From positions 1 through 41,398 of IMG/VR virus record IMGVR_UViG_3300047470_000238: a stretch of DNA of 41,398 nt, one strand, 5' to 3'. This DNA comes from a virus. Made by a program: the position numbers and the translations under genes. This document shows, one piece after another, positions 1 through 41,398 of the stretch (position 1 is the stretch's first letter; each line of letters starts with the position of its first letter). The notes below the pieces were generated by a model that searched no databases, had not been told where the DNA came from, and saw nothing but the letters and a program-made list of their open reading frames with translations.

Positions 1-2136
1 AACGTGACCGCCGCGCAAAACGCGGCGAACGCGGCGAACACCTTGGCCGGCGGGAAGGGCAAGGTGATCGTGCAAACCGCTGCACCGGCGGCGGCCGATC
101 AACTGGCGCAAAACCTGTGGATCGACATCACCGGCGGGGCGAACACGCCGAAGCGCTGGACCGGCTCGGCTTGGGTGGCAGTGACGGACAAGGTGGCCAC
201 CGATGCGGCGGCAGCGGCAGCCAATGCCTTGTCAGTGGCCAACACCAAGGCCGATGCCTCGGCAGTCAACAGCCTGACCACTCGCGTGGAAGCGGCTGAA
301 GGCACGATCAGCAGCCAGGGCAGCTCGATCACCGGGTTGAACAACAGCCTGACCACCACCAACACCAACGTGACCGCTGCGCAAAACGCGGCGAACTCGG
401 CGAATACCTTGGCCGGCGGGAAGGGCAAGGTGCTGGTGCAGGCGGCGGCGCCGGCAGCGGCCGATCAGTTGGCGCAGAACCTGTGGATCGACATCACCGG
501 CGGGGCGAACACGCCGAAACGCTGGACCGGCTCGGCCTGGGCAGCCGTGACCGACAAGGTGGCGACCGATGCGGCGGCAGCGGCAGCCAACGCGTTGTCG
601 GTGGCCAACACCAAGGCCGATGCCTCTGCGGTCAACAGCCTGACCAATCGGGTGACTGCAGCAGAAGGTACGATCACCTCGCAGGCATCATCGATCACCA
701 ACCTGACCGCCTCCATCAGCAACGTCGGCAGCGATAACCTGCTGTACAACCCGTCGTTCGATGTAGTCGACCCTGCGCTGAGCGGCCTCCCTGCCGGCTG
801 GATGCTTAACAACAACAACGTGACGGTGGTCCCATCGGTCGTGGCGTCCACCCTTGACTCGGCCGGTAAGGCGGCAAGACTTGACATAACCCTGAACAAC
901 GCTAGCAGCTATTCCAGCCTGCGCCCGGTCACCGGCGAGCAGCCAGTTACCGTCCCCGGTCAGGTGTTCACGCTGTCGGTTAGTTTCCGGGCTACGGTCG
1001 GTATGATCGCTCGCCTGTACTTTCAGTGGATGAGCGCTACTGGTAACTGGATCTCCGACGATTCCTTTGTATCGGTCAGTGCTGCCGAGGAATGGCAGCG
1101 TATCTCGAAGACCTCGTCCCCAGCCCCGGCCAACGCGGCATCGGTCCGAATTCTGTGCCGAATCATCGGGCCGCTGAACGGCGCTAGCATCACTGGTTTT
1201 GTGGAGTGGGATCGAGCCCAGCTGGAAATCGGCAACGTGATGACGGGCTGGCGCGACAGCAATCAGGTGCTAGCCGGCAACGTGGTCACCACCGCAACCG
1301 CACTGGCCACGCTCACCACCTCCGTGACGGAGCAGGGCACGACCCTCACAAGCCAGGGCACCTCGATCACCGGGCTGAACAACAGCCTGACCACCACCAA
1401 CACCAACGTGACCGCCGCGCAAAACGCGGCGAACGCGGCGAACACCTTGGCCGGTGGCAAGGGCAAGGTGATCGTGCAAACCGGGGCGCCGGCGGCAGCG
1501 GATCAGCTGGCGCAGAACCTGTGGATCGACATCACCGGCGGGGCGAACACGCCGAAGCGCTGGACCGGGTCGGCCTGGGCGGCGGTGACCGATAAGGTGG
1601 CCACCGATGCGGCAGCGGCAGCGGCCAATGCCTTGTCGGTGGCCAACACCAAGGCCGATGCCTCAGCGGTCAGCAGTTTGGACAGCCGCGTGACAGCGGC
1701 GGAAGGGACCATCAGCAGCCAGGGCGCCTCGCTCACCTCGCTGAACAACAGCCTGACCACCACCAACACCAACGTGACTGCCGCGCAAAACGCGGCGAAC
1801 GCGGCGAACACCTTGGCCGGCGGCAAGGGCAAGGTGATCGTGCAAACCGGCGCACCGGTGGCGGCCGATCAACTGGCGCAGAACCTGTGGATCGACATCA
1901 CCGGCGGGGCGAATACGCCGAAGCGTTGGACCGGCTCGGCCTGGGCAGCGGTGACCGACAAGGTAGCCACCGATGCGGCAGCGGCAGCGGTCAACGCCTT
2001 GTCGGTGGCCAACACCAAGGCTGATGCAACTGCCGTGACCGCCTTGACCGGCCGAGTGACTGCTGCAGAGGGAGCGATCACCAGTCAGGGCACTTCGCTC
2101 ACCTCGCTGACTAACACGCTCAGCCGGGTCGGGCAG
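1..2136 (+). repeat. 366-bp in-frame repeat units of J (copies 3-6)
   Basis: Units begin at 1, 367, 1405 and 1771 with the codons for NVTAAQN, and each is 366 bp (122 residues). The array is interrupted between about 733 and 1404 by a beta-rich insert. The first two copies lie at 40540 and 40906. Bases 1-363 are identical to 40540-40902; the other copies differ at scattered positions. Each unit has a small domain (about residues 17-60, with the LWIDITGGANTPKRW motif) followed by an alanine-rich coiled-coil segment. Confidence 0.93.
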
Positions 2137-3681
2137 AACTCGCCGACCAAGGTCTACCAGAGTCTGTTCACCGGACTGGCGACGGATCAGTGGCGCCTGA
2201 ACTCTGCCAGCCTGGCGACCGTTGCGTTCAGCAACGTGGCGGGCAACCTCAGCGGTGCCACCCTGACCTTCGATTGCGGGACAGGCAAGCACTGGTGGGG
2301 GGCGACCAACAAGCTGATCAGGTTCGACCCAGCCCGTCTATACAAAGTAACTGCCCGGGTTCAGCAGGTGTCGACAGTGGTTGGCAACACCCAAACCTTC
2401 TTGGGTCTGGATGGCTACGCAGAGGACGGCGTAACCCGTATCAACACCCTCGGGACCAGCAGCACCAGCAACGCTCACTACGTACTGACATCCTCCAGAG
2501 TCTTGGAGGTTGGGGTGTGGACCGAGTTCACCGCCTACGTGAAGGGCTTCACCGTCGGCGCTGAAAACGGCGGGTCCGGTGCGGGGACGCTGGCTGACCC
2601 TCGCCGGATGAAAACCGGGATTGCCTGGATTTCTCCCATGGGGATCTTTGGCTACAACAACCTCGGCGGTGTCGTGGCGCTGGACTACTTCTGGATCGAG
2701 GACGTGACCGAGCAGGTGCAGATCGATGCGACGTCTACTGCCCTGTCCGGTCTGACCTCCACCGTATCGCAGCAAGGCACCACACTCACCAGCCAAGGCA
2801 ACAGCCTGACGCAACTGACCAACCGGGTAGGCGATGTCGAGGGCGTCAACAGCGGTCAGGCGGCGGCGCTCAATTCGCTGGATACGCGGGTCACTTCCAC
2901 GGAAGGGAAAGTCACTGCTCAGGCGACAGCCTTTCAGGCGCTTCAGGCATCGTCGCGAGACGACAACGGGGAAGGCGAGCTGGCGGATGCGTTTAAAGGC
3001 TGGACGAGTACCGCTGCAATCGCTTCGGAATCCAAGGTTCGCACCTCTGAATCTGAAGCCTTTGCGCAGCGGATCACCGGCTTTGATGCCCAAATAGGAG
3101 AGAACACGGCCAACATCACCGAGCTGGAACAGGTGGTGGCGACCAGTAATTCAGCGACGGCGACGAAGATAGATCAGCTGAATGTCTCGGTCGCGAGTAA
3201 CACCGCCGCCATCCAACAGACGTCCACGGTCTTTGCTGACACCAACGGCAAGCTATCCAGCATGTGGTCGGTGAAGATGCAGATCAACGCCCAAGGACAG
3301 TACGTTGCTGCAGGCATCGGGCTTGGCATCGAGAACACAGGGGCTGGCCTGCAAAGCCAGTTCCTGGTCAGCGCGGATCGCTTCGCCATCGTTAACGGAA
3401 TCAACGGCAATCTGTCTGTCCCGTTTGCGGTCCAGAACGGGCAAGCGTTCCTGCAGTCGGCCTTTATCCTCGACGGCACCATCACCAATGCCAAGATCGG
3501 CAGTTACATCAGCTCGAACAACTACATCCCCGGCCAGCAAGGCTGGGTTCTCTATAAAGACGGAACGCTAGAGATCAATGGGATTGTCCCGGGCCAGGGG
3601 CGGCTGGTGATCAACTCGCAGAACGTCTCGGTCTACGACGCCAACAATGTGTTGCGTGTCCGACTCGGCTACCTGGGGTGA
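1..3681 (+). CDS. J: Tail tip / host-specificity protein J, C-terminal part (5' part is at 37537-41398)
   Basis: The frame is open from base 1 and matches the frame of J at the right end. Joined across the circle, J would be about 2,471 residues, roughly twice lambda J. This part carries four of the six copies of a 122-residue repeat (copies begin at 1, 367, 1405 and 1771). Two beta-rich inserts of about 180 residues (about 733-1280 and 2137-2720) look like carbohydrate-binding modules, with an NPSFD start and a GW-R-D end in the first. A coiled-coil stretch and a DUF1983-type C-terminal domain follow (about 2950-3678, ending RVRLGYLG). J proteins form the central tail fibre that contacts the receptor. 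The family call is firm; the repeat copy number depends on the assembly. Confidence 0.9.
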   Translation, partial: NVTAAQNAANAANTLAGGKGKVIVQTAAPAAADQLAQNLWIDITGGANTPKRWTGSAWVAVTDKVATDAAAAAANALSVANTKADASAVNSLTTRVEAAEGTISSQGSSITGLNNSLTTTNTNVTAAQNAANSANTLAGGKGKVLVQAAAPAAADQLAQNLWIDITGGANTPKRWTGSAWAAVTDKVATDAAAAAANALSVANTKADASAVNSLTNRVTAAEGTITSQASSITNLTASISNVGSDNLLYNPSFDVVDPALSGLPAGWMLNNNNVTVVPSVVASTLDSAGKAARLDITLNNASSYSSLRPVTGEQPVTVPGQVFTLSVSFRATVGMIARLYFQWMSATGNWISDDSFVSVSAAEEWQRISKTSSPAPANAASVRILCRIIGPLNGASITGFVEWDRAQLEIGNVMTGWRDSNQVLAGNVVTTATALATLTTSVTEQGTTLTSQGTSITGLNNSLTTTNTNVTAAQNAANAANTLAGGKGKVIVQTGAPAAADQLAQNLWIDITGGANTPKRWTGSAWAAVTDKVATDAAAAAANALSVANTKADASAVSSLDSRVTAAEGTISSQGASLTSLNNSLTTTNTNVTAAQNAANAANTLAGGKGKVIVQTGAPVAADQLAQNLWIDITGGANTPKRWTGSAWAAVTDKVATDAAAAAVNALSVANTKADATAVTALTGRVTAAEGAITSQGTSLTSLTNTLSRVGQNSPTKVYQSLFTGLATDQWRLNSASLATVAFSNVAGNLSGATLTFDCGTGKHWWGATNKLIRFDPARLYKVTARVQQVSTVVGNTQTFLGLDGYAEDGVTRINTLGTSSTSNAHYVLTSSRVLEVGVWTEFTAYVKGFTVGAENGGSGAGTLADPRRMKTGIAWISPMGIFGYNNLGGVVALDYFWIEDVTEQVQIDATSTALSGLTSTVSQQGTTLTSQGNSLTQLTNRVGDVEGVNSGQAAALNSLDTRVTSTEGKVTAQATAFQALQASSRDDNGEGELADAFKGWTSTAAIASESKVRTSESEAFAQRITGFDAQIGENTANITELEQVVATSNSATATKIDQLNVSVASNTAAIQQTSTVFADTNGKLSSMWSVKMQINAQGQYVAAGIGLGIENTGAGLQSQFLVSADRFAIVNGINGNLSVPFAVQNGQAFLQSAFILDGTITNAKIGSYISSNNYIPGQQGWVLYKDGTLEINGIVPGQGRLVINSQNVSVYDANNVLRVRLGYLG

Positions 3682-9686: not shown

Positions 9687-9796
9687 GTCGTTCCTATAGG
9701 TTCAGGTGCGGCCGCTTCCAGTGTCGACCGCCGGCAGCAGTAGAGCGAATCGGCAGCGGCGGGGCAACTTTCTGCAGTCGACCCGGCAGAATTCTT

Positions 9797-9845
9797 GCGT
9801 CAATGCGTTATAAAGTCATTGCGTCAAATGACGCAATGACGCAAT
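9797..9845. repeat. GCGTCAAT-family repeat site 1 (imperfect palindrome ATTGCGTCA-AA-TGACGCAAT)
   Basis: GCGTCAAT at 9797, the 20-bp inverted repeat at 9818-9837 and a further GACGCAAT at 9838-9845. It lies in the divergent gap between the lipoprotein and the 9901 gene. The same inverted repeat occurs at 14376-14393. Confidence 0.8.
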
Positions 9846-13378: not shown

Positions 13379-13633
13379 TTACTTCGGCGCACCCATTCGA
13401 TCCATCATTTCTTCAAGGGCCTTGATGGTCGCTTGCTTGACGTTGGTTTTGTGGTCCAGGGCAAACTGTTTCACACGCTGATGAAAATCTGCAGGAACGC
13501 GCAAGTTCATCGGTACATCACCCTCACGCTCGGGCTTATCAGTGTTATTACCCATAACGGTGGACAATGTTTCGCTGGTAGGTGGCGTGCCCTTCCCTAC
13601 GTTACGCTTTGGCGGCTTTGGTACGTCGACCAT
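13379..13633 (-). CDS. Ribbon-helix-helix DNA-binding protein (ParG-like partition partner)
   Basis: An 84-residue protein. The ATG at 13633 is chosen because AGGGGA precedes it at good spacing; a TTG six bases upstream is poorly placed. The N-terminal 40 residues are flexible and basic. The C-terminus (VPMNLRVPADFHQRVKQFALDHKTNVKQATIKALEEMMDR) fits a ribbon-helix-helix fold. In ParA/ParG-type plasmid systems such a protein binds the centromere and stimulates the ATPase. It lies downstream of ParA, and a perfect GCGTCAATTGACGC palindrome stands just before it. Confidence 0.75.
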   Translation of the reverse strand: MVDVPKPPKRNVGKGTPPTSETLSTVMGNNTDKPEREGDVPMNLRVPADFHQRVKQFALDHKTNVKQATIKALEEMMDRMGAPK

Positions 13634-13648
13634 GGTCAATCCCCTACT

Positions 13649-13690
13649 GCGTTAAAGTGTTAAAACGTCAAAGCGTCAATTGACGCAATA
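13649..13690. repeat. GCGTCAAT-family repeat site 2 with perfect palindrome GCGTCAATTGACGC
   Basis: A run of GCGTTAAA, GTGTTAAA, ACGTCAAA and GCGTCAAT units that ends in the 14-bp palindrome 13673-13686. It fills the 57-bp gap between ParA and the ribbon-helix-helix gene. Confidence 0.85.
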
Positions 13691-14347
13691 TTAAGCGGTG
13701 CGCTGCAGGTACTTCAAGCGGTCAATGACGGATTGCACCAGCGTGCTGGCCTGCTCCCGCAATCCTTTATGACTGACTTCGGTCAGGGCCAATCCGGCAT
13801 CGAGCGCGCGACGGTAGAGGACTTTTTCGTAAATGGTTCCGGCGAGCAAATGGTAGGGCGTGGCCGCCAGATAGCTGCGTGACTCGACAATTTCCTTGTC
13901 ACTGTCGCCACCTCTGATGAGTGCCAGGGCGATCCGCTCGGGGGCAATGCCGTGTTTATCCACCAGCGTGTTGGCGAGCCTGATGGTGGGGCGCATGTCG
14001 TCACGGCTTAAGCCGGTGGGCAGAATCATCAGATCCACCGCGTTTCCCATTTCCACTGTGCCCGCATTAGCCTTTGGCTGGCCGTCGAAAATGATCAGGT
14101 CCAAATCGTCAGAGCTGGACGCTTTAAAAGCTTGGCTAAAGGTAGCGAAGGTTTCGACCCGGATAGAAGGCGTAATGCCACTCTGCATGCGCTGCAGATT
14201 CCATTCATGGCAAGTGGACTGGTCCAGGTCAAGATCACAGATCTTCACCTGCCAGTCAGCGGCGGCGTAGGTGACGGCGATGGAGCGCGCGATAGCGCTT
14301 TTGTAAACGCCGCCCTTCTGCGATGCGGTGCCGATTCGAATAGCCAT
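13691..14347 (-). CDS. parA: ParA-family partition ATPase
   Basis: A 218-residue protein with the deviant Walker A motif KGGVYKS (residues 11-17). Tyr before the Lys is also found in the SopA and P1 ParA motif. The DLDLDQST segment at about 38-45 follows, then the Walker B strand LDLIIFDGQ. The length matches small type Ib ParA proteins, which lack a DNA-binding N-terminus and use a ribbon-helix-helix partner. Here that partner is encoded just downstream. ParA forms ATP-dependent nucleoid-bound gradients that move plasmid copies to daughter cells. The gene lies in the leftward lysogeny cluster, flanked by dispersed repeats. Confidence 0.85.
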   Translation of the reverse strand: MAIRIGTASQKGGVYKSAIARSIAVTYAAADWQVKICDLDLDQSTCHEWNLQRMQSGITPSIRVETFATFSQAFKASSSDDLDLIIFDGQPKANAGTVEMGNAVDLMILPTGLSRDDMRPTIRLANTLVDKHGIAPERIALALIRGGDSDKEIVESRSYLAATPYHLLAGTIYEKVLYRRALDAGLALTEVSHKGLREQASTLVQSVIDRLKYLQRTA

Positions 14348-14365
14348 ACTGTTCCCCTTTTGGCG

Positions 14366-14393
14366 TTATTGCGTCATTGCGTCAAATGACGCA
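14366..14393. repeat. GCGTCAAT-family repeat site 3 (upstream of ParA)
   Basis: GTTATTGCGTCATTGCGTCA with the inverted repeat ATTGCGTCA-AA-TGACGCA at 14376-14393, 20-45 bp before the ParA start. Its position suits an operator for ParA autoregulation or a centromere. Confidence 0.85.
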
Positions 14394-14435
14394 GCCAAAG
14401 AATAGCGCGCAGCCGGGGATCGATCAAACGTTTTT

Positions 14436-14466
14436 AACGCAATGACGCTTTAACGCAATGACGCAT
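14436..14466. repeat. GCGTCAAT-family repeat site 4
   Basis: AACGCAATGACGCT followed by TTAACGCAATGACGCAT: two tandem copies of a 16-base unit, ending at the 3' end of the LuxR-type gene. Confidence 0.85.
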
Positions 14467-14924
14467 CAGGCGATGGCGGAGAACGAGCGGGCAATCTGCA
14501 GGCTGAACAATTGGCCGGCCGAGGCTTGCTCGGTGTTGCCAGATCGTCCCGAGCGGCCATTGCTGGTGGCGCGGGTCAAGCGGGTCAGGCTGATGGGGAT
14601 ACGGCTGCGTGTCGGGGTGCGGTTGCGGTTGCTGTGGTGATCGTTGGTCACGGCGCAGCTGGTGGCCAGCAGCGCGCACAGGGCGCGCGGCAGCAGTACG
14701 CCGAGGATGAAACCACGGGCCACCATGTGCCCGGGTGTTTTGGCGCCGAGCTTGGCGCGCACCTGCATTTCCACCATACGCAAAGTGGCGGAATCGGTGT
14801 GCGTAGCGGTTTGAATGGCGTTTAAGGGGTTGCCGTTGGCCATGGCGACCAGCACATCTAATTCAAGCTCCGAAAGGTTCTGCCCGGGTGTGCCGATCAC
14901 GTCATCGTTTTTCAGAGTGGTCAT
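14466..14924 (-). CDS. LuxR/GerE-type helix-turn-helix protein
   Basis: A 152-residue protein. Residues about 17-75 (LSELELDVLVAMANGNPLNAIQTATHTDSATLRMVEMQVRAKLGAKTPGHMVARGF) fit a LuxR-type DNA-binding domain: ELEVL-like helix 1, a recognition helix and the KLGA/RVQ end. There is no N-terminal receiver or ligand domain. A hydrophobic stretch (GFILGVLLPRALCALLATSCAV) and a basic Ser/Thr/Arg tail follow. Similar short LuxR-type genes occur next to the repressor in other Pseudomonas prophages. It probably regulates part of the lysogenic programme; its targets are unknown. Confidence 0.75.
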   Translation of the reverse strand: MTTLKNDDVIGTPGQNLSELELDVLVAMANGNPLNAIQTATHTDSATLRMVEMQVRAKLGAKTPGHMVARGFILGVLLPRALCALLATSCAVTNDHHSNRNRTPTRSRIPISLTRLTRATSNGRSGRSGNTEQASAGQLFSLQIARSFSAIA

Positions 14925-17194: not shown

Positions 17195-17593
17195 ATGATC
17201 ATTATTGGCTTGACTGGCGGTAAGCCGGATAACCGCAAAGAAATTGCTGAGCGCCTGGAGAAGTTCGGCGGTCATCGGTTAAAGACGTGGGCAGGTTCCG
17301 AGTCTCTGAAAGAAGCGCCGCGCGCGCGTGATTTGTCGCTGGTGTTGAATGATGCCGGCCGGAACAAGTCACTGGGTGGCATCGTGATTTACAACGTCAT
17401 GACCAAGGCCGAGGCTGATGACATTCGCCGCCGTGGCGGGGTGATTTGGCATGTGATGGGCAAGCCATCCGAGTCGATTCCAATGGAGCTTGCAGACCCC
17501 AAGGTCACCCATATGCACGGTGGCTGCCGGCACTTTCTGGACTCGATGCACGCCTTTTCTGATCACCTGATGCAGATCGCGGCGGCCAGCTAA
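17195..17593 (+). CDS. Degenerate dNMP kinase-like (P-loop-fold) protein
   Basis: A 132-residue protein. The ATG at 17195 is preceded by AGGGGAGC at a somewhat long distance. The N-terminus IIIGLTGGKPDNRKEIAERL has the shape of a phage deoxynucleoside monophosphate kinase P-loop, but the GxxGxGK[ST] residues are missing. The later segments GGIVIYNVMTKAEADDIRRRGGVIWHVMG and HMHGGC... LD match the family layout. It may be an inactive relative that binds nucleotides or another partner. It ends in a TAATG junction. Confidence 0.6.
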   Translation: MIIIGLTGGKPDNRKEIAERLEKFGGHRLKTWAGSESLKEAPRARDLSLVLNDAGRNKSLGGIVIYNVMTKAEADDIRRRGGVIWHVMGKPSESIPMELADPKVTHMHGGCRHFLDSMHAFSDHLMQIAAAS

Positions 17594-18021
17594 TGGGCCG
17601 GCGGCGCGTAAGCCATATCCATTCGCTCATGGAGCTATGGTCGGCATGGTGTGAGGGTTCCACCGGCCAACTCGGCGCCGGCAGCTCAATGCTTGCGCGC
17701 CTGATCGATGGCAAAGGTGAAATTCTGTTCGGCAACAGCGGCCCGGGTTCCAGCGAGCCCAATGACGGCATCGAAACCCGGATTGAACGCATCGTCATGG
17801 CGCTGGCCCAGCGCAATCAAGATTGTGCGGATGTGCTGCGGCTTGAGTTCTCTGCCGGCTGGTGGGGCGTCTGTGCCCGCCGAGGCATCCGCAACTATGA
17901 CCCTCGTGGCATGGACCAGATGAAGCGTGCGCACATGATGGGCATCAGCTTGCGCACCTACGAGCGGCGCCTGCAGGAGGCCATGACCACTATTGAAGCC
18001 CAATTGAAGGAGAAACCATGA
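17593..18021 (+). CDS. Putative late-gene antiterminator (Q-like)
   Basis: A 142-residue basic protein starting at the TAATG junction. The central and C-terminal region (RIERIVMALAQRNQDCADVLRLEFSAGWWG... DQMKRAHMMGISLRTYERRLQEAMTTIEAQL) fits the sigma-like helix-turn-helix layout of phage Q-type/DUF1133 regulators, with the final helix pair contacting DNA. The position, near the end of the early operon, is where lambdoid phages keep Q. Several intrinsic terminators inside the late operon would need such a protein. Confidence 0.6.
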   Translation: MGRRRVSHIHSLMELWSAWCEGSTGQLGAGSSMLARLIDGKGEILFGNSGPGSSEPNDGIETRIERIVMALAQRNQDCADVLRLEFSAGWWGVCARRGIRNYDPRGMDQMKRAHMMGISLRTYERRLQEAMTTIEAQLKEKP

Positions 18022-18263
18022 CGCGCGATGACGTCCAGATGATGGCCCGCATGCTGTTGACGGGTGAGATTTCCCCGTCCGCCGAAAATGGCGCCCGGTT
18101 GATTGACCATGTGAGCGACCTGCAGACCTTTGTCATCGATCTGACGGAATGGCTGGCTTCGCCGCCGAGCCCGATGAAAACCGCTACCTATTACCAGATT
18201 CAAGCCCGGGCGCAACGGTTGCGCAACGTCATCGAGCCGCCGAAGTCTCTGGTGATGTTTTGA
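18018..18263 (+). CDS. Hypothetical early protein
   Basis: An 81-residue helical protein coupled by ATGA to the Q-like gene. Residues such as LLTGEISPSAENGARLIDHVSDLQTFVIDLTEWLASPPSPMKTATYYQIQARAQRLRNVIEPP suggest a small helical bundle with a proline-rich turn. Not recognised. A dispersed-repeat site begins at its stop codon. Confidence 0.72.
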   Translation: MTRDDVQMMARMLLTGEISPSAENGARLIDHVSDLQTFVIDLTEWLASPPSPMKTATYYQIQARAQRLRNVIEPPKSLVMF

Positions 18264-18285
18264 CGCAATGACGCTTTGACGCAAA
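18258..18285. repeat. GCGTCAAT-family repeat site 5
   Basis: TTTTGACGCAATGACGCT followed by TTGACGCAAAT: the same unit as site 4, placed between two early genes and about 30 bp before the next start. Confidence 0.85.
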
Positions 18286-18311: not shown

Positions 18312-18959
18312 ATGACGGACAAACCCGCAAAACCCGCTAAAGCCGCAAAACCTGACAACATCAAGGCCGAGTCGCCGGCGCTGACCGACAAGGTGGCCAC
18401 CGATGCGGCGGCAGCGGCAGCCAACGCCTTGTCAGTGGCCATCACGAAGGCCGATGCGGTAGTGGTCAGCAGTTTGTCCAGCCGGGTGACGGCACTGGAA
18501 GGGACGATCACCAGCCAGGGCAGCTCGATCACCAGGCTGAACAGCAGCGTGACCAGCCAAGGCCAATCGATTACCTCGCTGGATGCCCCGGTTTTTTCTA
18601 CAGTCGGCGCCTTAACTACAGTGCTGAACACGAAAATCGTTGAACCGGGTGGTCTGGCGCTATCGCCTGCAGTGGTGGCTGTACTGGCGGAGCGTGCCCG
18701 TCAACTGCAGGAGGAAGGGCATACAGCCGAGGCCGACGCCGCTTGTCAGAATGGTGAGCTGGTCAAGGCCGCCATCTGTTACGCGATGGCACCGGCGCAG
18801 CTCCCGATTCACCGCGCGATGTTTTCCTGGCCCTTCTCCCCGGCCAGCTGGAAACCGACTGAACCAACCCGCGATCTAGTGAAGGCGGCTGCGCTGTTGC
18901 TTGCCGAGCTTGAGCGCCGTTATCGACTGGCCGAAGCCAGCGAATCCGAAAGCGTTTGA
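18312..18959 (+). CDS. Chimeric early protein: J-repeat segment fused to a conserved phage domain
   Basis: A 215-residue protein starting at the ATG at 18312, after a lysine/alanine-rich leader. Residues about 23-80 (TDKVATDAAAAAANALSVA... EGTITSQGSSIT) are the coiled-coil half of the J repeat; 18382-18448 is nearly identical to the J units at DNA level. The C-terminal half (LSPAVVAVLAERARQLQEEGHTAEADAACQNGELVKAAICYA... WPFSPASWKPTEPTRDLVKAAALLLAELERR) is a domain conserved in many phages, of unknown function. The gene is therefore a fusion, probably made by recombination with J. Confidence 0.8.
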   Translation: MTDKPAKPAKAAKPDNIKAESPALTDKVATDAAAAAANALSVAITKADAVVVSSLSSRVTALEGTITSQGSSITRLNSSVTSQGQSITSLDAPVFSTVGALTTVLNTKIVEPGGLALSPAVVAVLAERARQLQEEGHTAEADAACQNGELVKAAICYAMAPAQLPIHRAMFSWPFSPASWKPTEPTRDLVKAAALLLAELERRYRLAEASESESV

Positions 18960-18989
18960 TGCTTTGATGCTTTGATGCTTTGACGCAAT
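18955..18989. repeat. Tandem 8-bp repeat TTTGATGC and GCGTCAAT-family site 6
   Basis: Three TTTGATGC units run into TTTGACGCAATC. The stop codon of the chimeric gene lies in the first unit. The last unit is the standard repeat of the dispersed family, so the others look like decayed (C to T) copies. Confidence 0.8.
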
Positions 18990-19093: not shown

Positions 19094-20374
19094 ATGTCCC
19101 TTTCAAGTACCGTTCACATCAAGTTCAACGACGCCGAGCTAAAGCGCCTCGCTGACCAGTCCGTTATCCGTAACGTGCGTGATCCTCGACACCCTGCCTT
19201 GCATTTTCGCTTCGGCCAAAACCGTGCGCGGGGCTCGTGGCATGTCATTCGCCATGTTGCCGGCAAGAGTCCTACTCGCAAGCTGGGCAACTGGCCGGAC
19301 ATTACCGCCAAAACCGCCCTGGAGCTGCTGCCGAAGAAGCTGGCCGAGCTGACTGCCGATCCAACTGCCCTGGTGTCGGTGTCGAGCTGGGCGCGGGTGG
19401 CAGACCTGCTGCACTGGTACGCGGACCGTATCGAGCGCACCCGTAAGATGTCGGCCAAATGGAAGGGCACCGTGCGTTCCCTGGTGGCCTGTCAGCTATT
19501 GCCGCGTGTTGGCTCGCTCAATCTGCAGCTGGTCGAACATAACGCCCTGGATGAGCGCCTGATCTGGCCCATGCAAGAGGTTCACAGCTTGGCCTATACC
19601 CGGCAAGCCTTTGGCCTGCTCAAGTCGGCATTCAAGCGTGCGGCCAAGTTAAAAATGCTGGCTGCCAATCCGCTGGCCGAGGTGGTGTTTTCCGACTTCA
19701 TTGATACGCCGATTCGCCCCAAGCCCTGCGCCTTGAGGCCGCATCAATTGCCGGATCTGGTCAAGCGGTTGTCCACGGATGGCGTCCAGTTGACCGCCCT
19801 TTGCCTGTTGCCGCTGATGATGCTCTGCCATGGCACCCGCATCAGTGAAACCCGCTTGGCCAAGTGGCAAAACCTGACCCTGGAAGAGGGTGGGGAATGG
19901 TTCCTGCCAGCGGCCGACACCAAGACCGATACCGACCATCGGCTTCCCCTGACTCGGCACACCGTGGCGCTGTTGAAGGCCTACCGGTTCCGTCAGCGTC
20001 AAGCCGGCTACGAGGGCGCCTATCTGTTCCCGCGTGGGGATGGTGACCCACTCAGCGAAACCCAAGCCCAAGAAAAAATAGCCTCCTTGACGGAAGGGGA
20101 GTGGACCAGCCACGACCTGAGAAAGATCGCCCGCAGCATGTGGTTAGACCTCGGCGTCGAATACTTCATTGGCGAGATGTTGCTCAACCACGCGATGGAC
20201 GATCTGCAGGCGGCGTACATCCATACCCACGCTGAAACCCTCAAGCGCGACGCCCTGGAGCGTTGGCATTTGTGGCTGGAATCGAAAGGCCTGTGTTTTT
20301 TTTGGGCCACCGAGACAACACCGAGACAGCCTGCAGCAGCGATCACCCTCAACACCAACAACGACGCGGCCTAG
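19094..20374 (+). CDS. int: Tyrosine recombinase (integrase or multimer resolvase)
   Basis: A 426-residue protein with all active-site residues: Arg249 in GTRIS, Lys277 in TKTD, His340 and Arg343 in HDLRK, His366 in LNHAM, and the Tyr375 nucleophile in AAYIH. The N-terminal 200 residues hold an arm-binding-type region and a core-binding domain, as in P4-like integrases. The gene reads away from the early operon. No excisionase-like gene or clear attachment core was found next to it, so it may integrate the phage or resolve plasmid multimers. Confidence 0.92.
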   Translation: MSLSSTVHIKFNDAELKRLADQSVIRNVRDPRHPALHFRFGQNRARGSWHVIRHVAGKSPTRKLGNWPDITAKTALELLPKKLAELTADPTALVSVSSWARVADLLHWYADRIERTRKMSAKWKGTVRSLVACQLLPRVGSLNLQLVEHNALDERLIWPMQEVHSLAYTRQAFGLLKSAFKRAAKLKMLAANPLAEVVFSDFIDTPIRPKPCALRPHQLPDLVKRLSTDGVQLTALCLLPLMMLCHGTRISETRLAKWQNLTLEEGGEWFLPAADTKTDTDHRLPLTRHTVALLKAYRFRQRQAGYEGAYLFPRGDGDPLSETQAQEKIASLTEGEWTSHDLRKIARSMWLDLGVEYFIGEMLLNHAMDDLQAAYIHTHAETLKRDALERWHLWLESKGLCFFWATETTPRQPAAAITLNTNNDAA

Positions 20375-37476: not shown

Positions 37477-37495
37477 ACAACCCGATTTTTGAAAG

Positions 37496-37517
37496 CCGGC
37501 CCTGAGCCGGTTTTTTT
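37496..37517 (+). terminator. Terminator-like hairpin between I and J
   Basis: CCGGC-CCTGA-GCCGG (37496-37510) followed by seven T residues: a full intrinsic terminator inside the tail operon, 20 bp before the J start. Confidence 0.8.
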
Positions 37518-37536
37518 ATGTCCGAAGGATTTGACC

Positions 37537-40500
37537 ATGGCAGCAATTCAAGGCCGTAAAGGTGGATCGAGCGAAGCCAAGACGCCGGTAGAGGCGCCGG
37601 ATTCCATCCGTTCTGTGGCGCGGGCCAAGATGTTGCTGGCCTTGGGCGAGGGGGAATTTGCCGGCGGCCTGGATGGCACGCGTATTTTTGCCGACGGTAC
37701 CCCGCTGACTGCCGCCGATGGCACGGAAAACTTCCCGGGCTTTAAATGGGAGTTTCGCCCAGGCACGCAGCATCAGGAGCATATTCCCGGGCTGCCATCG
37801 GTCGAAAATGAAATCGGCGTGGGGGTCGAGCTGCGCAGTACGGCGCCGTGGGTGCGCGCTGTCAGCAACGCCCAACTGTCCGCTGTGCGTTTGCGCTTGT
37901 CCTGGCCAGTGCTGCAACAGCAAGTGGACGGCGGCGACGTGACGGGCTACCGCATCGATTATGTGGTGGAAATCTCAACGGCGGGCAATGGCTGGGTGCA
38001 GGCGCTGGCCGCCACCATCAACGATAAAACCACGACCAAATACGAGCGTTCGCACCGGATTGAACTGCCGGCCAGCACCGGCGGGTGGAGCGTGCGCGTT
38101 CGGCGCCTGACCGCGAATCAGGACAGCAATAAGATCGCCGATACCATGCGTATCGAGGCGATCACCGAAGTCATCGACGCCAAGCTGCGCTATCCGAACA
38201 CCGCCTTGCTGTATGTCGAGTATGACGCCAGCCAGTTTCAGAACCAGCCGAAGATTTCCTGCAAGCCGCGCATGCGGGTTATCCGTGTGCCGACGAACTA
38301 CAACCCGGAAACGCGCAGCTACAGCGGTATTTGGGATGGCACGTTTAAATGGGCGTGGACCAATAACCCGGCGTGGGTGCTGTACGACATTATTCTGAGC
38401 AAGCGTTTCGGCATGGGCCGGCGCCTTGATGCGTCCATGGTGGACCGCTGGGAGCTGTACCAGATTGCCCAGTATTGCGACGAGCTGGTCAGTGATGGCC
38501 ATGGCGGCATGGAGCCCCGGTTTACCTGTAACGTTTACATTCAAGACGCGGCCGACGCTTGGGACGTGTTGCGCGACATCGCCGCGATTTTTCGCGGCAT
38601 CACCTACTGGAGCGGCCGGGAAATGGTCGCCCAGGCGGACATGCCCTCGGATGTGGAATACGTGTTTTCGCGCTCCAATACCAAGGTGGTCGACGGCAAA
38701 ATCAGCTACAGCAGCCAGTCGGAGCGCTCGCGTTATTCGTCCGTGTTGGTGGCTTACGACAACCCGAAAAACCGTTACGAAAGCGAGCCGGAGCCGGTGT
38801 CTATTCCGTCGCTGGTGCGCCGTTATGGGTTCAACCAGACGCAGATCACGGCCATCGGCTGTGTCAGTCAAAGCGAAGCGAACCGGCGCGGGCGCTGGCT
38901 GCTGCTGACCAACGCGGTCGACCGATCCATCACCTTCACCACGGGGCTGGATGGGTATCTGCCGAAGCCTGGGCGCATCATTGGCATGGCGGACGCGTTT
39001 CTGGCCGGCCGTGAGCTGGCCGGGCGCATCAGCTTGGTATCCGGCCGGCAAATCACCCTGGATCGGGATGTCGTGGTTAAGGCGGGCGACCGCTTGCTGG
39101 TCAACCTGCCGAGCGGTCGCGCCGAAGCACGCACCGTGCAGAGCGTGAGCAATCGCGTCGTTACGGTAACGACGGCGTATTCAGAAACGCCGTTGGCACA
39201 GGCGCAGTGGGGCATCGAATCCACCGATCTGGTGATTCAGCAATACCGCGTCACGTCCGTTACGCGTAACGATAAGGGTTTTGAAATCTCGGGGATCATG
39301 ACCGACCCGGGCAAATATTCGCAGGTCGACAGCGGCACCCGTCTCGAAACGCGGCCGATCAGCGTGATTCCTGCGCGCGCCCAGGACGCGCCGGCAGCGG
39401 TCAAGGTGTCGAGCTTCACTCGCGTGGTGCAAGGGATCGCGGTCACCACCTTGCGCGCAGACTGGGAGGCGGCGAAAGGCGCGATTGCCTACACCGTCGA
39501 ATGGCGCAAAGACTCGGGCGAATGGGTCGCCGTGCCCCGCATGTCGGGGCTCGGCTTCGAAGTGCCGGGGATCTACGCCGGCCGCTACCTTGTGCGCGTT
39601 CGGGCGCTCAACGTGATGGACGTGGCCAGCGTGTTTGCGTACAGCGCGGAGACGGTATTGAACGGCAAGGAAGGCTTGCCGCCGGCGGTCACTGAGTTGA
39701 TCGTCACGCCGTTGCTGTTTGGTATCGGCCTCAATTGGGGCTTTCCTGCCGGCGCCGAGGACACGCAGCGCACGGAAATTTGGTACGGCCCGACCAGTGC
39801 CCTAGAAAGTGCGATCAAGCTGGCAGATCTGGCCTATCCGCAAAGTGATTACTCGATGCAGAGCCTGCAGGCTGGCGCGAGGTTCTTTTTCTGGGCACGC
39901 CTGATCGACCGGACCGGCAACGTCGGCCCTTGGTATCCAACGGGTATGGGGGTGATGGGGCAAGCCAGTGACGACCCCGGGCCAATCCTTGGTCAGATCG
40001 CCGGCCAAGTTGGCGAGACCGAGCTGGGTAAGGGGCTGTTAGACCGGATCGAGCTGATTGACGGACCGTCAACCCTGCCGGGATCGGTCAACAATCGCGT
40101 GAATGAGCTGAGCGAGCAAATCGGCCAAGTCACGGATCACCTGCAGGAGCTGGTGAATGAAGGACAAGCCGCGCTGACCGACGCTCAGCAGGCGTTCAGC
40201 GAAGCTCAAGCCGAGCTGCAGCAGCAAATCGATCAAGTCAGCACCCTCGCCAAATCTGGCGAATACCAGAAGGATAAAGCCTACGCCATCGGCGCCTCGA
40301 CGCGCCTGAATGATCGCCTGTACCAAGCCAAAATCGCGGTGCCGGCGGATGCCAGCGGCGCGAAGTCGCCGCCGAATGCGACCTATTGGGTGGACGTTGG
40401 CCAAGTAGTGTCCGAGTCGAACGGCTTGGCCGCACGGGTCAACACCACTGAAACCAAAATCACCAGTATCGAGGGGGTCAATACCAGCCAGGGCACGGCG

Positions 40501-41398
40501 ATCACCGGGCTGACCAACAGCCTGACCACCACCAACGGCAACGTGACCGCCGCGCAAAACGCGGCGAACGCGGCGAACACCTTGGCCGGCGGGAAGGGCA
40601 AGGTGATCGTGCAAACCGCTGCACCGGCGGCGGCCGATCAACTGGCGCAAAACCTGTGGATCGACATCACCGGCGGGGCGAACACGCCGAAGCGCTGGAC
40701 CGGCTCGGCTTGGGTGGCAGTGACGGACAAGGTGGCCACCGATGCGGCGGCAGCGGCAGCCAATGCCTTGTCAGTGGCCAACACCAAGGCCGATGCCTCG
40801 GCAGTCAACAGCCTGACCACTCGCGTGGAAGCGGCTGAAGGCACGATCAGCAGCCAGGGCAGCTCGATCACCGGGTTGAACAACAGCCTGACCACCACCA
40901 ACGGCAACGTGACCGCCGCGCAAAACGCGGCGAACGCGGCGAACACCTTGGCCGGCGGCAAAGGCAAGGTGATCGTGCAAACCGCTGCACCGGTGGCGGC
41001 CGATCAGTTGGCGCAGAACCTGTGGATTGATATCACCGGCGGGGCGAACACGCCGAAGCGCTGGACGGGTTCGGCGTGGGCAGCGGTGACGGATAAGGTG
41101 GCAACCGATGCGGCAACGGCAGCCGCCAACGCCTTGTCGGTGGCCAACACCAAGGCCGACGCGGCAGCGCTGACCAGCTTGACTACCCGCGTGACCTCGG
41201 CGGAAGGGACGATCAGCAGCCAGGGCACTTCGATCACCGGGTTGAACAACAGCCTGACCACCACCAACGGTAACGTGACCGCCGCGCAAAACGCGGCGAA
41301 CGCGGCGAACACCTTGGCCGGCGGGAAGGGCAAGGTGATCGTGCAAACCGCTGCACCGGCGGCGGCCGATCAACTGGCGCAAAACCTGTGGATCGACA
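37537..41398 (+). CDS. J: Tail tip / host-specificity protein J, N-terminal part (continues at 1-3681)
   Basis: The ATG at 37537 follows TCCGAAGGATTTGACC. The frame is open to the window end with no stop (1,287 codons), and position 41272 corresponds to position 1 in the same frame. The N-terminal about 700 residues are the conserved lambda J core (ALGEGEFAGGLDGTRIF..., YPNTALLYVEYDASQF..., WAWTNNPAWVLYDIILSKRFGMGRRLD..., a long segment of hub and fibronectin-like domains). A coiled coil (about 40100-40250), a small GEYQKDKAYAIG-type domain and the first 122-residue repeats (from 40540) follow. It is the receptor-contacting central fibre. Confidence 0.93.
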   Translation, partial: MAAIQGRKGGSSEAKTPVEAPDSIRSVARAKMLLALGEGEFAGGLDGTRIFADGTPLTAADGTENFPGFKWEFRPGTQHQEHIPGLPSVENEIGVGVELRSTAPWVRAVSNAQLSAVRLRLSWPVLQQQVDGGDVTGYRIDYVVEISTAGNGWVQALAATINDKTTTKYERSHRIELPASTGGWSVRVRRLTANQDSNKIADTMRIEAITEVIDAKLRYPNTALLYVEYDASQFQNQPKISCKPRMRVIRVPTNYNPETRSYSGIWDGTFKWAWTNNPAWVLYDIILSKRFGMGRRLDASMVDRWELYQIAQYCDELVSDGHGGMEPRFTCNVYIQDAADAWDVLRDIAAIFRGITYWSGREMVAQADMPSDVEYVFSRSNTKVVDGKISYSSQSERSRYSSVLVAYDNPKNRYESEPEPVSIPSLVRRYGFNQTQITAIGCVSQSEANRRGRWLLLTNAVDRSITFTTGLDGYLPKPGRIIGMADAFLAGRELAGRISLVSGRQITLDRDVVVKAGDRLLVNLPSGRAEARTVQSVSNRVVTVTTAYSETPLAQAQWGIESTDLVIQQYRVTSVTRNDKGFEISGIMTDPGKYSQVDSGTRLETRPISVIPARAQDAPAAVKVSSFTRVVQGIAVTTLRADWEAAKGAIAYTVEWRKDSGEWVAVPRMSGLGFEVPGIYAGRYLVRVRALNVMDVASVFAYSAETVLNGKEGLPPAVTELIVTPLLFGIGLNWGFPAGAEDTQRTEIWYGPTSALESAIKLADLAYPQSDYSMQSLQAGARFFFWARLIDRTGNVGPWYPTGMGVMGQASDDPGPILGQIAGQVGETELGKGLLDRIELIDGPSTLPGSVNNRVNELSEQIGQVTDHLQELVNEGQAALTDAQQAFSEAQAELQQQIDQVSTLAKSGEYQKDKAYAIGASTRLNDRLYQAKIAVPADASGAKSPPNATYWVDVGQVVSESNGLAARVNTTETKITSIEGVNTSQGTAITGLTNSLTTTNGNVTAAQNAANAANTLAGGKGKVIVQTAAPAAADQLAQNLWIDITGGANTPKRWTGSAWVAVTDKVATDAAAAAANALSVANTKADASAVNSLTTRVEAAEGTISSQGSSITGLNNSLTTTNGNVTAAQNAANAANTLAGGKGKVIVQTAAPVAADQLAQNLWIDITGGANTPKRWTGSAWAAVTDKVATDAATAAANALSVANTKADAAALTSLTTRVTSAEGTISSQGTSITGLNNSLTTTNGNVTAAQNAANAANTLAGGKGKVIVQTAAPAAADQLAQNLWID
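40540..41398 (+). repeat. 366-bp in-frame repeat units of J (copies 1-2 and the start of 3)
   Basis: Units begin at 40540, 40906 and 41272. The first 363 bases of the unit at 40540 are identical to positions 1-363, and 41272-41398 is identical to 1-127. The window is therefore cut inside copy 3. Confidence 0.95.

Follow-up and report, generated by a model that had tools for sequence, protein, structure and literature searches.

The window analysed here is the whole of a single virus record, IMGVR_UViG_3300047470_000238, with a length of 41,398 bases. Its first and last 127 nt form an exact terminal overlap (1–127 = 41272–41398), and these identical ends indicate a circular genome of approximately 41.27 kb. 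Because of the same overlap, the tail-tip gene J is continuous across the contig ends on the plus strand. Its 5′ part (37489–41398) carries the FNIII-A_GpJ domain (PF24801), and its 3′ part (1–3681) carries the Phage_Tail_Tip domain (PF09327), a PHROG tail-protein match and repeats. The J repeat unit measures 366 nt (122 aa) and comprises a globular half (NVTAAQNAAN...KRWTGSAW; NVTAAQNAANAANTLAGGKGK...KRWTGSAWVAV) and a coiled half (TDKVATDAAAAAANALSVANTKADA...LNNSLTT). A repeat search placed donor-type coiled halves in the 3′ part of J at 178–357, 544–723, 1582–1761 and 1948–2127, and further repeat units lie in the 5′ part at 40717–40896 and 41083–41262 (all on the plus strand). The contig ends fall within these repeats, and the number of J units may have been collapsed by assembly. 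The relatives of the virus point to Pseudomonas as the host genus.

Far from J, the plus-strand gene at 18312–18959 encodes a protein of 215 amino acids. Its reading frame is intact, with an ATG start and a ribosome-binding site (AGGGA) 7 nt upstream. The upstream neighbours are a Q-like ORF (17593–18021) and an 81-aa ORF (18018–18263), both on the plus strand and assigned by PHROG matches and synteny. The fixed downstream neighbour of the gene family is a tyrosine integrase (19094–20374, plus strand; PHROG integrase match and synteny). From the gene order, the gene at 18312–18959 is probably early and J late; a promoter scan found no promoter. The encoded protein consists of a basic K/A/P N-terminus, a J-type coiled segment, a linker and a conserved phage C-terminal domain. 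The N-terminus (MTDKPAKPAKAAKPDNIKAESP; 18312–18377) is the gene's own and in alignments resembles the K/A/P-rich N-termini of syntenic relatives. The J-derived segment (TDKVATDAAAAAANALSVAITKADA...LNSSVT) occupies 18376–18555 and is followed by the linker (18556–18665), which according to the alignments appears to start with a second TSQGxSITxL motif. By this motif, the start of the linker may still be J-like at the protein level to about 18584; the approximately 27 residues beyond it bear a weak likeness to the end of the relatives' linker (APVFS.. versus PPVF..). The C-terminal domain extends from about 18666 to 18956.

An unprompted repeat search grouped 18376–18555 into one family with six J copies, and blastn delimited the same homologous stretch with an E value of 1.6e-49 against the window's own J. 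Over these 180 nt the segment shares 73–83% DNA identity with the J units of the window, and its protein sequence is up to 78% identical to them. Aligned without gaps over 180 nt, the segment reaches 83% identity to J at best, whereas the maxima were 50% for 300 codon shuffles and 47% for random 180-mers from the window; since both controls stay far below the observed value, the likeness to J is not due to chance. No other place within 3.7–37.3 kb nears the segment's identity to J. An earlier, sequence-only reading had described 18382–18448 as nearly identical to J units such as 182–248, and 63 of these 67 positions indeed agree with the unit at 178–357. It had also described a weaker similarity continuing to about 18552. 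The extent holds, with homology reaching 18555, but the weakening is not gradual: successive 30-nt blocks counted from 18382 show identities of 97, 97, 70, 57, 93, 70 and 40%, so that a block of 93% recurs after a dip, and the dip falls where the J units also vary among themselves. The segment corresponds exactly to the coiled half of one J unit and starts where that half starts (18376). The globular half is absent from the fusion gene, in which homology begins at 18376. An AlphaFold monomer model predicts a helix at residues 29–62 with moderate confidence, while residues 66–95 are of low confidence. A Pfam scan detected neither the FNIII-A_GpJ nor the Phage_Tail_Tip domain in the fusion protein, and the matches of the coil to the SlyX and S-layer profiles fall short of their cut-offs.

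The junction comes from a single virus record that ends inside J repeats, and no second contig with it was found, as would be expected if J-derived reads had been joined to an unrelated early gene during assembly. We consider such a chimera very unlikely, because the longest exact match between the segment and J is 38 nt, shorter than the 127-nt overlap, and because the segment differs by at least 16% from every J unit found (maximum identity 84%). In addition, both flanks are syntenic with relatives and the frame is open through both borders.

The C-terminal domain is common in temperate phages; it has no Pfam family and is distributed over several PHROG families of unknown function. The C-terminal part of the fusion protein is matched by PHROG 9763, 6628 and 9434 and others, namely 14548, 3956 and 11504, all of which share the domain (E values down to 9e-30). 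These families differ from the window protein in that the matches cover mainly its C-terminal part and that the sampled domain-bearing proteins lack the J segment. The domain motifs read AERxRQ..EG..D..GEL..AA.CYA..WP..KP..RDLVKAAALLLAE, and the window copy carries the features of PHROG 9763/6628 (ERxRQ, EG, D, GEL, CYA, WP, KP, RDLVKAxAL and AExER) as well as the fold. A 65-sequence alignment and an all-helical AlphaFold model (pLDDT 96) define the domain, which has phage structural relatives in BFVD. The earlier description of a coiled segment joined to a conserved phage domain holds. Among solved structures, a domain-profile search gave no match and a PDB fold search no significant match. 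A MazG-like all-alpha NTP pyrophosphohydrolase, with the fold and metal-binding acidic motifs of that group, was considered as an identity for the domain. Here BFVD gave one weak match, to a protein annotated as a putative NTP pyrophosphohydrolase (E value 0.86, probability 0.93, TM score 0.57), which is a lead only, and D91 has been lost from the window copy. Loci with the domain include L010, L018, L020–L179 and L218–L297. Among 114 non-redundant N-terminal parts, the partners of the domain included Ead_Ea22 (nine), Lar restriction alleviation (four), DUF7220 (two), MazG-like (two) and MazG (one), which indicates that fusion to different N-termini is a normal habit of the domain. In two Escherichia coli phages an Ead_Ea22 part is followed by the same C-terminal domain.

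The locus is conserved in related phages. In six relatives the product of the domain gene has a K/A/P-rich N-terminus, and a disordered, Ala/Pro/Lys-rich spacer takes the place of the J piece. In L020, L101, L219, L041/L187 and L030/L186 an integrase homologue was located downstream by tblastn, and in G433/L369 an integrase frame adjoining the domain gene was read from the translation. In PARCL1pr the flanking genes are present without the domain gene, and 105 nt lie between them. A search of other domain proteins for the J segment (HMM, filters off; 240 loci from two overlapping scans) gave nothing significant. In 399 Pseudomonas genomes no J-like match was found in short frames; among the matches listed on the J segment alone, every frame exceeded 1,500 codons. 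Peptide-pattern scans of genome and viral collections revealed no homologue with the same fusion, nor did degenerate patterns placed at its 5′ border and within the domain, or searches of phage and plasmid collections. A 332-aa frame with the segment in L327, considered as a second fusion, proved to be a J gene broken across frames. The comparison of C-terminal-domain homologues that the sequence-only reading had proposed thus yielded no independent carrier of the J segment in the 240 overlapping loci and the 399 Pseudomonas genomes, and the fusion is known from one phage.

The position of the segment among J units bears on its source. A tree of 81 J segments from the window and related phages nests the gene segment among the J units of this phage group, where it clusters with the window unit at 1582 (support 0.88). 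Measured by identity alone, J units of the contigs L299, L301 and L298 are just as close to it (83–84%). Tree and identity together indicate that the donor was the J gene of the same phage group, within which the individual donor phage is not distinguishable. With the same-locus relatives that lack the segment, this nesting supports the proposal that a J-type tail repeat recombined with a gene of a conserved family.

For three window units, the position-matched J units of related phages show 97, 94 and 89% identity, and for two others 82%; the gene segment is more diverged than most of them. Since these units are often far closer to one another, the fusion segment has diverged outside J without any sign of staying in step with it. 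In view of this divergence, of the 84% ceiling on identity and of the shortness of the longest exact match, the suggestion that the shared patch swaps sequence with J is not supported. A secondary conversion event in the 67 nt at the 5′ end was also considered; the gene–J pairs (94% identity in the 5′ part, 75% in the 3′ part) lie within the J–J spread, so that no such event need be assumed. The synonymous divergence is 0.34–0.79 between the gene segment and the J units and 0.33–1.06 among the J units. The corresponding dN/dS values are 0.27–0.58 for the gene segment and 0.11–0.42 for J–J pairs, and coding constraint on the J segment thus looks to have been retained.

The same comparisons weigh on the idea that the early protein pairs with J through its coil, as a decoy or as a chaperone of tail assembly. 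The protein identity to the J units makes heteromeric coils physically possible; however, no relative carries the segment, the locus is probably early whereas J is late, and the segment, instead of tracking J, has diverged from it. We regard this interference or co-assembly as very unlikely. There is likewise only a slight chance that, through its J-derived coil, the early, non-structural protein pairs with J in mixed coiled coils and thereby influences tail-tip assembly or superinfection of its own phage group; were it to do so, mixed J coils would be a direct regulatory link between a lysogeny locus and the tail, created by one recombination event.

Several known systems allow the layout of the fusion protein to be placed. 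The early protein Ea22 of phage lambda, encoded near int, favours lysogeny and combines a short N-terminus with a coiled coil and a C-terminal domain (PMC10834534). The full protein is a tetramer, while the isolated C-terminal domain is a dimer and is insufficient alone (PMC10834534). Ea22 proteins of Stx phages differ in their C-terminal domains and have been described as a repertoire (PMC7093339). The window protein resembles Ea22 (PF13935) in having an N-terminus, a coil, assigned by homology and a predicted helix, and a separate C-terminal domain close to int. It differs in that it shows no match to PF13935 (Ead_Ea22) above the cut-off, in that its coil comes from J and in that its C-terminal domain is all-helical, whereas that of lambda Ea22 is mixed alpha–beta (PMC10834534). 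The window protein is thus Ea22-like in layout and is not a member of the Ea22 family. With gpJ, the central tail fibre of Pseudomonas siphophages, it shares at the DNA level a 60-aa segment that equals one coiled half-unit; it differs from gpJ in its short length, in having none of J's conserved domains and in the distance of its gene from J.

We consider it probable that the gene encodes an Ea22-like modular protein at a lineage-specific locus, in which the spacer has been replaced by a J coil that now serves as an oligomerizing stalk, and that the product is a non-structural accessory of early functions or lysogeny. In this reading the locus between the Q-like gene and the integrase is specific to the lineage and its product is modular: an N-terminus that is basic and of low complexity, then a spacer and the conserved all-helical C-terminal domain. 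Illegitimate recombination would then have exchanged the disordered Ala/Pro/Lys-rich spacer for about 60 residues of one J unit from the same phage group. As the simplest mechanism, and by analogy with Ea22, the J coil would act as an oligomerizing stalk that multimerizes the C-terminal domain, much as the coiled coil seems to be required in lambda Ea22. The fusion protein would accordingly belong among early or lysogeny accessories and not be part of the virion.

The state of the C-terminal domain bears on the main competing account, in which the fusion is a neutral accident: the J piece would be one more tolerated linker in a spacer that is free to vary, the coil would have no specific role and the function may be fading. 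The window domain keeps 25 of 31 conserved positions and has the tied lowest conservation score among the 65 rows of the alignment. The window copy, at 18651–18956, is changed at D30, R73 and D91, three positions that are each conserved to 97% or more across 64 homologues. These losses, taken with the lowest-tied conservation, suggest that the gene may be decaying, and the three changed residues make filler in a decaying gene a serious alternative. The relatives' spacers are of low complexity and barely alignable, and the fusion has been seen once, as an accident would predict. Against it, the frame is open, dN/dS relative to J stays below 1 over the segment and a coil-type sequence has been kept. 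A neutral origin is accordingly possible, though we judge it rather unlikely, and an oligomerizing stalk in an Ea22-like accessory protein is our preferred reading.

Smug et al. (2023) reported ongoing domain shuffling in phage proteins; the links that they describe connect tail fibres with one another, and many involve proteins of unknown function (PMC10684548). In that work domain mosaicism is defined by a fragment of 50 aa or more, with at least 30% identity and low pairwise coverage, that is shared by otherwise unrelated proteins (PMC10684548). On length, identity and coverage the present fusion falls within this definition, the fragment having 60 aa, up to 78% identity and a coverage of 28% of the window protein. 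The case differs from those of Smug et al. in that the donor gene is identified and lies in the same genome, and in that relatives without the fragment occupy the same locus. Fragment shuffling between phage proteins is already established, and the fusion is an unusually clean new case of it, not a new type of system. Donor and recipient are rarely both seen in one genome with the pre-fusion state kept in relatives; here a single case shows the repeat that served as donor, both borders, the empty locus, and the recipient locus in forms that have or lack the fragment. The fragment has passed from a late structural gene into an apparently early gene, which makes it possible to test if coils of tail fibres act as ready-made oligomerization parts for regulatory phage proteins.

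Clusters of repeats with an 8-nt period (TTTGACGCAATGACGC...) occur between genes at 9794–9845, 13649–13689, 14363–14386, 14433–14467, 18259–18285 and 18955–18989. The fusion gene and a ParA-like gene (13691–14347; CbiA/MipZ Pfam match) each lie between such clusters, which are also present at one further intergenic place. The motif TGACGCNNTGACGC has 21 matches with up to two mismatches, compared with 7.5 expected. In G433 the ParA is 61% identical and the same motif is dispersed at five places; in G006 the ParA is 52% identical and a different repeat of 8-nt period (TAACGAAT) lies on either side of it; neither ParA nor repeat occurs in PARCL1pr. The repeats resemble partition or operator sites, dispersed and varying with the ParA lineage, and the phage also has an integrase. 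An 86-aa ORF on the minus strand (13379–13639), RHH-like by eye and with no Pfam match, adjoins the ParA-like gene and is a candidate for its DNA-binding partner.
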